Below, one piece after another: positions 46,360 to 50,671 of a stretch of 64,000 bases of DNA; positions within the stretch are counted from its first letter, which is position 1, and the number at the start of each line of letters is the position of its first letter. The stretch lies in contig MNEL01000047.1 of NCBI GenBank assembly GCA_001917665.1, positions 1-64,000 on the forward strand, written 5' to 3'. The notes below the pieces were generated by a model. It ran no database searches. It saw only the letters and a program-made list of their open reading frames with translations, and was not told the DNA's origin. The stretch comes from Gemmatimonadetes bacterium 13_1_40CM_69_22. GTDB taxonomy: Bacteria > Gemmatimonadota > Gemmatimonadetes > Gemmatimonadales > GWC2-71-9. A program made the position numbers and the translations under genes.

Positions 46360-46977
46360 TCAGGTCAGGCGGATGGCGTCAAAGATGGCCTTGAGCGACG
46401 CCAGATCGGGGAGCAGCAGGAAGTGGCCCCGCAGCCCCTCGGCCGAGTCGATGGTGAACTCGGTCTCGACGCAGAAAACGAAATCGCGCTCATGCCCGAA
46501 GTTCAGGTAGGTGGTGGTGAGCACCGCGGCCGAGACGTCGACCACGAGGCTGGGCACGGACGGCAGGAGCAGCATGCCCATGAAGTCGGAGAGCGCGTTC
46601 ATGTAGGCGCCCGAGAGGATGTTGCCCGCCTCCTTGAGGCACGATTGCTCGAGCGCGTCGAACACCACGGTCGTCCCCGCGGGGCGACGCAGCAGCATGT
46701 CGCAGACTCTGCGCCCCACGGCTTCGGGGAACAACAGCAGCGTGCGGCCGGTGAGGTCGCCGAGCATGTGCATCAGCACGGCGGCCACCACGTCCTGCGG
46801 ATGCCCCAGCAGGTCCGGCACCTCCTCGAGGCGCGCGATGTTGATCTGCGGGACGCTGATCATGATGCGGCGGTTGGTGAGCTGCGACAGGGCCGTCGCC
46901 GCATGCCCCGCGCCGATGTTGGCCACCTCGCGCAAGGCGTCGATCTGCAGCGCTTTGAGGTCCCGGACGTCCTCCAT
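46360..46977 (-). CDS. cheC: CheC-type CheY-P phosphatase
   Basis: 205 residues with two CheC/CheX active-site signatures: DALREVANIGAGHAATALS and EAGNILSGAYMNALSDF, each with the E...N pair. It dephosphorylates CheY-P and is stimulated by CheD in other species. It lies between cheA and the large TPR gene. Confidence 0.93.
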   Translation of the reverse strand: MEDVRDLKALQIDALREVANIGAGHAATALSQLTNRRIMISVPQINIARLEEVPDLLGHPQDVVAAVLMHMLGDLTGRTLLLFPEAVGRRVCDMLLRRPAGTTVVFDALEQSCLKEAGNILSGAYMNALSDFMGMLLLPSVPSLVVDVSAAVLTTTYLNFGHERDFVFCVETEFTIDSAEGLRGHFLLLPDLASLKAIFDAIRLT

Positions 46978-47517
46978 CCCGCCTCCCTACAGGAGCCCGC
47001 CGGCGTCCAGAATCAACGCCGGGATCCCGTCGCCCATGATGGTCGCCCCGCTGAACACGGGCAGCGTGCCCTGCGGCGCGTCGAACCCTTTCACGACGAT
47101 CTCCTGCTGCCCCAGCATCCCGTCCACCACGACCCCCGCCCGCCGGTCCCCCATTTCGAGCACGATGATCGGGGCCCGGGCGGGCTCCCGGTCGCTGGTG
47201 ACGCCGAGCAGCCGGCGCAGGTGCACCAGCGGCACCACGCGGTCGCGCAGCACGATCGCCTCGCGGCCTTCCACGACGGTCGTGGTCACCGTACCGAGCT
47301 CGACCGTCTCCGCCACATACGTGAGCGGCAGCGCGTAGCGCTCCGGCCCGACGCTCGCGATGATGGCGCGCACGATCGCGAGCGTCACGGGGAGCCGCAG
47401 TACGAAGGCCGTCCCCTTCCCCGCCTCGGACCGGATGTCGATCGTGCCGCCGAGCGCGCGGATGCGGGTCATGGCGACGTCGATGCCCACCCCGCGACCC
47501 GACACGCTCGTCACCGT

Positions 47518-47616
47518 CTCCGCCGTGGAGAACCCGGGCCGCGCCAGCACCCGCAACAGCTGATCGTCGGTCAGCGCGTCGGCGTGCGCATCCACCGCGC
47601 CGTCGCGCTGCGCCCG
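47518..47616 (-). repeat. 99-bp inverted repeat, copy A (native cheA HATPase sequence)
   Basis: In the minus-strand cheA frame this codes for the segment between DDGRGID and VSGRGVGIDVAM, including RPGFSTAE, which is conserved in CheA. It is therefore the original copy. It matches 48397-48495 exactly on the opposite strand. Confidence 0.95.
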
Positions 47617-48396
47617 CTCCAGAATCTTGTGGCGGTCGATCCCCCGGCCGTCGTCCGACACGGTGATGGCGACGCTGGCACGCTCGCGCACCGCGGTGAG
47701 CACGATCTCGCCTTCGAGCGGCTTGCCGCGGCGGCGGCGCTCGGCCGGCGGCTCGATCCCATGGTCCACGGCGTTGCGGAGCAGGTGTAGCAGCGGGTCG
47801 CCGAGCTCGTCCAGAATCGTGCGGTCGAGCTCGATCTCCTTCCCCTCGACCCGGAAGGCCACCTGCTTCCCGAGCTCGCGGGCCAGATCGCGCACGAGCC
47901 GCGGGAAGCGGTCGAACACTTGCCACACCGGCGTCATGCGCGCCTGGATGATCTCCGCCTGCAGATCGGAGGACAGGCGCGAGACCTGGATCGCGACGTC
48001 GTCGATCGCCGGGTCGCGCCGCTCGGCGGCGAGCTGGTTCAGGCGCCCCCGCGCCGTGGCGAGCTCCCCGATCAAGTCCATCAGGCCGTCCAGCCGCCGC
48101 AGGTCGACGCGGATGTGTCGGCTGCGCCCACCCTCCGCAGGCGCCGCGGGCAAGCCCTCGGGCGCGGACCCGCGCACCTCCTCGCCGCCCACCGTCAGGT
48201 GCGCGACGTCGCCCGCGGCTCGGAGCGCGGCCTCGATCTGATCCGCGGCCGCCGGGGAGTCGAGCCGGAAGCTGAACCGCCCCTCGAACTCCTCCGCTTC
48301 GAAGGCCGTCTGGGGAGGCGTGACGGCGTGCACGGCGCCCAAGGCCTGGGCCCGCCGGAGCACGAGCAGCGCCCGCCCGCCTTTCAAGGGCGCCTC

Positions 48397-48495
48397 CGGG
48401 CGCAGCGCGACGGCGCGGTGGATGCGCACGCCGACGCGCTGACCGACGATCAGCTGTTGCGGGTGCTGGCGCGGCCCGGGTTCTCCACGGCGGAG
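48397..48495 (+). repeat. 99-bp inverted repeat, copy B (misplaced, antisense in cheA)
   Basis: Exact reverse complement of 47518-47616; the match ends sharply at both sides. It lies between the HPt codons and the P2-like domain, where a CheA linker would be expected, and makes no sense as CheA coding sequence. The two copies are 780 bases apart. Confidence 0.95.
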
Positions 48496-48840
48496 CGGCG
48501 ACCTCGAGCTCACGCTCCCGCCCCACCACCGACAGCTCCACCGCGCGCTCGAGCGCATCGCGCGCGCGAAACAGCAGCTGGAGCAGCTGATCGGTGGCCG
48601 GGTGCGCGCCGCGGCGCAGCACGTCGAGCAGGCTCTCCATCCGATGAGCGAGGTCGGTGACCCGGGCGTAGCCCATCGTCGCCGCCATCCCCTTCACCGT
48701 GTGCACCGCGCGGAACAGCCCGCTCACGGGAGTGAGCCCGGCGGGCTGCCGCTCCCACTCGAGCAGCAGCTGGTTGCAGGCGCTCAAGTGCTCCCGGCTC
48801 TCGGCCAAAAACAGCTCGGCGTACTGCGACAGGTCCATGG

Positions 48841-49203
48841 TCAGCCCAGCACGCGCTGGACGGCTTCGAGCACGCGCGAGGGTTGGAACGGCTTCACGAC
48901 GAAGTCCTTCGCGCCCGCCTGAATCGCCTCCACCACCAACGCCTGCTGGCCCATGGCGCTGCACATCAGAATCTTGGCGTCCGGATCCTGCTTGACGATC
49001 TCGCGCACGGCGTCGATCCCGCCCATGTCGGGCATCACGATATCCATCGTGACGAGGTCCGGCTTGAGCTGCCGGTATTTCTCCACCGCCTGCGACCCGG
49101 TCTCGGCCTCACCCACGATCTCGAAGCCGGCCTGCGCTAGGATGTCCGAGATCATCGTCCGCATGAAGATGGCGTCGTCGCAGACGAGGACAGTGTGACT
49201 CAC
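48841..49203 (-). CDS. cheY: Response regulator CheY
   Basis: 120-residue single receiver domain: acidic pair VCDDAIFMR, phosphoacceptor VTMDIVMPDM, switch Ser LMCSAMG, and VVKPFQP lysine. It is a stand-alone regulator without an output domain, placed between cheW and cheA; it would signal to the motility or Mgl machinery. The start is GTG at 49201-49203. Confidence 0.95.
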   Translation of the reverse strand: MSHTVLVCDDAIFMRTMISDILAQAGFEIVGEAETGSQAVEKYRQLKPDLVTMDIVMPDMGGIDAVREIVKQDPDAKILMCSAMGQQALVVEAIQAGAKDFVVKPFQPSRVLEAVQRVLG

Positions 49204-49212
49204 ACACCCTCC

Positions 49213-49668
49213 CTAGGAAGACAAGATGGGGGTCAGTAGCGCGTCGGTATCGAGAACGACGAAGAGTTGGCCGGCGCGGCGCCCGACGGCGCGCACCAGC
49301 GTCGGATCGATGCCGGGCAGCGCCGGTCGGCGATCGAGCGCCGCGCCGTCGGCGGCGAGGAGGTCGACGACTTCGTCCACGGTGAAGCCCAGGACCTTCC
49401 TCCCCTCGCCGACCTCGAGGAGCACGGTCGTGCCGCTCTGGGTCCCGTTGGACGCGGGCGGCTCCGGCTGGCGGAGCGCTCGCCAACCCTCCACCACGGT
49501 GACGAGGGTGCCCCGCACGTTGACGAGACCGGCCACCAGCGGCGGCGTCCCAGGAATCCGCGTCGTCGCGAGCCGCGGCAGGATTTCGCGCACCCGCTCG
49601 GCTTCGGCCGCACAGACGAGGGTGCCCACGCGAAACACCAGCAGGCGGACGACCCCGGCGTCACTCAT
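49213..49668 (-). CDS. cheW: CheW-domain protein (copy 3)
   Basis: 151 residues: LLVFRVGTLVCAAEAERVREI, LVNVRGTLVTVVEG and GFTVDEVVDLLA fit CheW. It is the first gene of the Che set in transcription order; its ATG (49666-49668) overlaps the end of rluD by eight bases, so the Che locus is translationally joined to the housekeeping train. Confidence 0.88.
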   Translation of the reverse strand: MSDAGVVRLLVFRVGTLVCAAEAERVREILPRLATTRIPGTPPLVAGLVNVRGTLVTVVEGWRALRQPEPPASNGTQSGTTVLLEVGEGRKVLGFTVDEVVDLLAADGAALDRRPALPGIDPTLVRAVGRRAGQLFVVLDTDALLTPILSS

Positions 49669-50671
49669 CCGATGCGAAGAACCCAAGATACTGCAAGGGG
49701 TTGCGTTGAGCAAGCAAAGTGCCGTCTCCTGCCGCGCAGGCCAGCGCGGGCGCGAGATCGGGAGGCCATTCCGAGCGCAGCGTGACGCGGACACCGCTGA
49801 TCGGGTGGGCGAACGCGAGGCGGGCGGCGTGCAGCAGCTGGCGCGGCGCGAGCGCTTCGAGCTGCTCCGCCGCCCGCCGCTCTGACGGCGTGACCCGCCG
49901 GCTGCCGCCCAGCGCGTACTCCGGGTCGCCCACCACCGGGTGGCCGACATGCGCCAGGTGCACGCGGATTTGATGGGTGCGCCCGGTGCCGAGCGTGAGC
50001 CGCAACAGGTCGGTCTGCGCGAAGCGCGCCACCACCGCCGCGTGCGTCACCGCGTGGCGGCCGCCGGCGAGCACCGCCATCCGCTTGCGATCCTTGGGAT
50101 GCCGCGTGATCGGCGCCTCGATGTCGACGGGGCTCTTCGCGAAGTGGCCCCAGGCGAGGGCGGCGTACACGCGCTCGACCTTGCGCTGCTCGATCAGACG
50201 GGTGAGACGCCGGTGCGCGCTGTCGGTCTTCGCGACGAGCAGCAGTCCCGAGGTGTCGCGGTCGAGCCGGTGCACGATGCCCGGGCGCCCCGCGGTCGAC
50301 CCTTGCGAGAGCGCCGTGCCCCGCCCCACGAGGACGTTCACCAGTGTGTCGTCCCAGTGGCCGGGGCCGGGGTGCACCACCAGGCCCGGCGGCTTGTCGA
50401 GCACGGCGAGGTGCTCATCCTCGTACACGAAGCTCAGCTCCCGATGAGCCGGGGCGTACGTGCGGGGCGGGTCCTCCGCGGGGAGCTCGACCGTCACTAC
50501 CGCGCCGCGCTCCAGCCGGGCCGAGGCGCGCAGCGGCGCGCCGTCGCGGGTGACGCGTTTGGCGGCGATGAGGCGGGCGGCGACAGTGCGGGACAACGCA
50601 AGCTGATCGGCGACGAAGCGGTCGAGACGCTCGGTCTCGGGGGCCGCGACACAGAACGTGACGGCGGCCAT
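49661..50671 (-). CDS. rluD: RluA/RluD-family 23S rRNA pseudouridine synthase
   Basis: 336 residues: S4 RNA-binding domain (ERLDRFVADQLALSRTVAARLI) and the catalytic domain with HRLDRDTSGLLLVAKT (catalytic Asp in RLDxxTSG) and GRTHQIRVHLAHVGHPVVGD. RluD-type by domain order; exact target uridines cannot be told from sequence. It often neighbours lspA, as here (TGATG overlap). Confidence 0.92.
   Translation of the reverse strand: MAAVTFCVAAPETERLDRFVADQLALSRTVAARLIAAKRVTRDGAPLRASARLERGAVVTVELPAEDPPRTYAPAHRELSFVYEDEHLAVLDKPPGLVVHPGPGHWDDTLVNVLVGRGTALSQGSTAGRPGIVHRLDRDTSGLLLVAKTDSAHRRLTRLIEQRKVERVYAALAWGHFAKSPVDIEAPITRHPKDRKRMAVLAGGRHAVTHAAVVARFAQTDLLRLTLGTGRTHQIRVHLAHVGHPVVGDPEYALGGSRRVTPSERRAAEQLEALAPRQLLHAARLAFAHPISGVRVTLRSEWPPDLAPALACAAGDGTLLAQRNPLQYLGFFASDE

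Follow-up and report, generated by a model that had tools for sequence, protein, structure and literature searches.

A 99 bp inverted copy of HATPase coding sequence in place of the HPt-P2 linker of a Gemmatimonadota cheA gene: a probable chimera, less probably a recent template switch

The only cheA gene found in the Gemmatimonadota draft genome G000 is interrupted by an inverted copy of its own HATPase segment, which, judged by comparison with a sister genome, stands in for the linker between the HPt and P2 domains and is probably an in vitro chimera fixed by the assembly. The window analysed here comprises bases 1-64000 of contig C54 of this genome. The two arms (47518-47616 and 48397-48495) are 99 bp long, 100 per cent reverse complements of each other and 780 nt apart. 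The initial annotation had described an exact inverted duplication with the first arm in genuine CheA HATPase coding sequence and the second antisense at the place of the linker, and it had proposed a comparison of cheA in sister genomes. The exactness and the extent of the arms were borne out by the sequence. The source arm (RAQRDGAVDAHADALTDDQLLRVLARPGFSTAE, 47518-47616, minus strand) is genuine HATPase_c coding sequence by its Pfam match and by in-frame conservation in the sisters, and it differs from G004 at 7 of the 99 sites. The inverted copy (48397-48495, plus strand) does lie antisense to cheA where the linker belongs, and has no counterpart in G004, which holds 159 bp of linker there.

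In the proposed comparison, cheA is in one frame in the sisters G003 and G004, and the linker carried by G004 is lost from the window. Over 14,565 bp aligned around cheA the window and G004 are 95.4-95.8 per cent identical, and the cheA site is the sole indel. Agreement with G004 extends on the HPt flank as far as 48496 and resumes on the P2 flank at 48407; between these points there are 159 bp in G004 and 88 bp in the window, a net change of -71 bp. The inverted copy is truly present in the sequence, but, taken against G004, it is not a plain added duplication: the alignment shows a replacement, in which about 159 bp were lost and 88 bp of foreign sequence took their place. A second genome of the same species was not found in the genome_contigs scan, where all relatives were at most 58 per cent identical. 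The closest named relatives by CheA were Gemmatimonadota MAGs, and G000 is thus very likely a MAG of this phylum as well.

For the repeat scan, stretches of at most 20 kb from both ends of the contigs were combined with the window, and all exact repeats in these 1.61 Mb were listed. Apart from the cheA arms, no spaced local inverted repeat longer than 30 bp was found; the next-longest, of 30 bp, is a simple repeat, so that chance is excluded as the source of the 99 bp feature. The 1.61 Mb contained no second 99 bp exact repeat, and in the cheA genes of 19 relatives no exact inverted repeat longer than 16 bp was found. In the predicted fold, the two arms pair with each other. A perfect palindrome of about 30 bp (TGTAGGGGCGCAGCATGCTGCGCCCCTACA) is interspersed in the genome as well and resembles a REP-type or MITE-like element; its 28 bp core occurs 13 times in the 1.61 Mb, and its sites include L142:12121 and 12974, L165:8551, L043:13495, and L028:14218 and 16874. 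Short tandem heptamer arrays (TGCGGAA/TTCCGCA) are scattered over the genome (window:24577-24680, L027:3037, L037:7843, L163:8386 and others), often paired in inverted orientation 50-70 bp apart.

The 5' part of cheA (48496-48838, minus strand) is intact. It opens with ATG GAC CTG TCG, encodes an HPt domain with the HTVKG motif (Pfam Hpt, 5.7e-17), and is colinear with G004 without an indel. The remaining part (46987-48396, minus strand) encodes the P2, dimerisation, HATPase_c and CheW domains recognized by Pfam, and its frame is likewise intact. It had been claimed that the HPt and kinase parts are in different frames, and this was upheld by Pfam, which placed Hpt in one frame only and P2, H-kinase_dim, HATPase_c and CheW in another only; all five domains of a CheA are present, if not in a single frame. 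A one-base skip leads into the frame of the P2-kinase part. Since the ancestral linker must keep the frame, which the 159 bp of G004 do and the 88 bp do not, the frame is lost irrespective of how long the true linker was. A split CheA, with HPt and kinase as separate proteins, was considered and rejected: the HPt frame overruns the kinase and the cheA stop (ORF 46490-48964); in the P2-kinase frame, the first ATG (48558) is not preceded by anything like a Shine-Dalgarno sequence and itself lies within the HPt coding part. In the cheA of sister G002 (L015, G002:C78) much of the P2 domain is absent in frame, by real loss or by an assembly fault.

Comparison of the P2-kinase part with G004 gave a dN of 0.016 and a dS of 0.167 (dN/dS ~0.1), and 4-8 nonsynonymous as against 15-25 synonymous changes in cheA were assigned to the G000 branch. 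This synonymous excess is normal, and the substitutions give no sign of relaxed selection on cheA. The neighbouring genes, all on the minus strand, are intact: cheY (48841-49203; Pfam Response_reg, 3.6e-31) lies upstream of cheA, cheW (49213-49664, in an ORF opening at 49950; Pfam CheW, 1.3e-21) upstream of cheY, and cheC (46360-46977; Pfam CheC, 1.9e-22) downstream of cheA. A search of G000 for a second CheA found none, in agreement with the assertion that the cheA of the locus is the only one; of 61 genomes searched, G000 included, 57 gave CheA-type matches. G000 encodes PilT and five MCP signalling domains, whereas a search for FliG in the four congeners G000, G002, G003 and G004 found none. 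In these four genomes, a che locus (CheA/CheW/CheY/CheC) accompanied by several MCPs and PilT, with no flagellar motor detected, perhaps serves type IV pili. Nothing here suggests decay of the pathway. A real loss of cheA would have to be very recent.

The two edges of the inverted copy differ. At the right edge, alignment with the sisters revealed an 11 bp microhomology (CGCTGCGCCCG, 48397-48407, minus strand) present in the source arm as well as in the ancestral flank on the right; at the homologous flank this sequence is identical in G002 and G003 and has one difference in G004. By our own estimate, the chance of an 11 bp match at this base composition is ~2e-6, so that the right join was very likely formed via this homology. 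In its sequence, the right junction has the shape of a microhomology-primed template switch, which is known from cells as well as from amplification chimeras. At the left junction (48495-48496, between GTCGCCG and CTCCGCC) exact in-register microhomology is absent, and a similar heptamer, GTC[G/A]CCG, is found in the source flank one base out of register. The ends had been called sharp, which is true of the left edge (48495/48496) but not of the right edge, where the microhomology is concealed.

The assembly is a draft from environmental DNA (2.36 Mb, 60 contigs, 71.5 per cent complete). It has N gaps of 7, 159, 161, 174 and 267, of which the four longer ones also point to missing segments. 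In G004, two of them are matched by segments of 223 and 229 bp with 72 and 77 per cent GC; the N gap in C30 (L191) had no match on comparison with the sisters. In two other loci, runs of C are found where both G003 and G004 carry a coding linker: 41 C at C21:7452-7492 (L127), corresponding to 117 bp of 84 per cent GC in G004, and 30 C at C5:9771-9800 (L031), corresponding to 59 bp of 83 per cent GC in G004. These poly-C runs appear to be false bridges over lost GC-rich coding segments, and their source would likely be the poly-G reads of two-colour sequencing. Shorter G/C runs of 17 occur at L166:3371 and L194:8477. Contig C3 starts with an exact 483 bp direct repeat (L029, 1-483 and 1041-1523) and possibly has a misassembled end. 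A search of the literature on assembly artefacts found nothing on point.

The initial annotation had posed a recent template switch and an assembly fault as alternatives, and these proved to be the right pair to weigh, the artefact being the likelier. If the copy is a chimera, a nascent strand would have stalled during library or cluster amplification beside the GC-rich, Ala/Pro-rich HPt-P2 linker, and its 3' end (CGGGCGCAGCG) would have annealed anew to the identical 11 nt in the HATPase segment, 780 bp off on the other strand, and copied that segment backwards. The short-read assembly, for which coverage of the true linker would have been poor, may have bridged the gap with the chimeric sequence, the left join being made in the process, and dropped the linker of about 159 bp; the organism's own cheA would be intact. 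Such an origin is favoured because elsewhere, too, the assembly seems to have spanned lost GC-rich coding segments with false sequence: given the poly-C runs that replace linkers in two loci, the N gaps and the 60 contigs of the draft, a chimeric-read bridge over the Ala/Pro-rich linker is the economical reading. It is also in keeping with a cheA that is healthy otherwise, with intact che neighbours, MCPs and PilT, and with the lack of any other indel relative to G004 in the aligned segment. In the form of the right join, the site resembles chimeras of multiple displacement type (MDA), more than 85 per cent of which join segments in inverted orientation with loss of the sequence in between, mostly over less than 10 kb, and most of which were primed at 2-21 complementary nt (PMC1855051); here there is an inversion, a loss of about 159 bp in between, and priming homology of 11 bp. 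The cheA site differs in that it has two joins 99 bp apart, whereas a typical amplification chimera has one. An assembler working with k-mers requires reads crossing each join, and would thus have needed reads across both. Furthermore, no other false bridge of the inverted kind was seen, and the lost linker, as read from G004, has a GC content of just 73.6 per cent, a value reached or exceeded by 19 per cent of sampled 160 bp windows. With this GC content and a folding energy that is not unusual, extreme composition or structure of the linker finds little support as the cause of drop-out.

That the same sequence arose in the cell, by a real and recent template switch with two jumps, is possible, if the less probable origin. 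At a stalled fork, the nascent CGGGCGCAGCG end would have switched strand via the 11 nt microhomology 780 bp off, copied backwards for another 88 bases and come back past the linker, so that frame and linker were lost and the sole cheA found was killed; in this Gemmatimonadota lineage, with MCPs and PilT present and FliG not found, cheA would have been silenced too recently for any decay of the gene to show. One such event would account for both joins, with perfect microhomology at the first switch and loss of sequence at the return point, and since the copies are 100 per cent identical while the source differs from G004 at 7 of 99 sites, it would have been recent. Short template switches of this anatomy are on record: in the four-point form, ancestral bases give way to a reverse-complement copy of nearby sequence, with a perfect inverted repeat as the result, and in cheA a reverse-complement fragment does stand between flanks colinear with G004 (PMC7954356). 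In great apes, however, the templated length of such switches has a median of 12 and a maximum of 128 (PMC7954356), so that 99 bp copied from 780 bp off are at or past the tail of the described short events, and the cheA case comes from a draft genome. The quasipalindrome-associated mutation of E. coli is likewise a template switch giving a perfect inverted repeat (PMC7202029); the cheA case differs in that the sisters have no prior long quasipalindrome at this site, where only 11 bp are shared. An event in the cell would moreover be the sole indel in 14.6 kb relative to G004, it would have hit a conserved, sole gene under purifying selection with intact partners, and, given that a MAG represents the consensus of a population, the dead allele would need to be close to fixation.

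Two further explanations concern the arms themselves. The length of 99 had been noted as a k value used by some assemblers, but that a k=99 de Bruijn graph, using one 99-mer twice, produced the repeat is very improbable. Among 120 contig ends there is a single exact overlap, between the ends of C26 and C41, and it is 63 bp long, not 99; no other 99 bp exact repeat accompanies the cheA arms in the 1.61 Mb; and with no 99-mer common to the flanks, and homology of 11 bp under one join and 0 bp under the other, the joins cannot stem from a shared 99-mer. Perfect inverted arms of 99 bp suffice for RecA-dependent inversion, and could in principle flip the 780 bp segment to turn cheA on and off. Such a functional switch is scarcely credible: its arms have no parallel in the 19 relatives (see above), and flipping the segment either way would leave cheA broken, as the gene lacks its linker and the present order is the one in which the source arm codes.

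Under either of the two main readings, the copy would go back to a single event of a known kind. If it is real, it would give one clear instance of a long template switch in a bacterium, within a comparison that has no other indel. The cheA transcript would, besides the frameshift, form a perfect stem of 99 bp, the kinase part would be without an HPt domain of its own, and chemosensory signalling would presumably have ended. If the copy is an artefact, as we consider probable, the draft has false bridges in GC-rich coding linkers, and gene losses called from it, such as that of chemosensory signalling, would be wrong.
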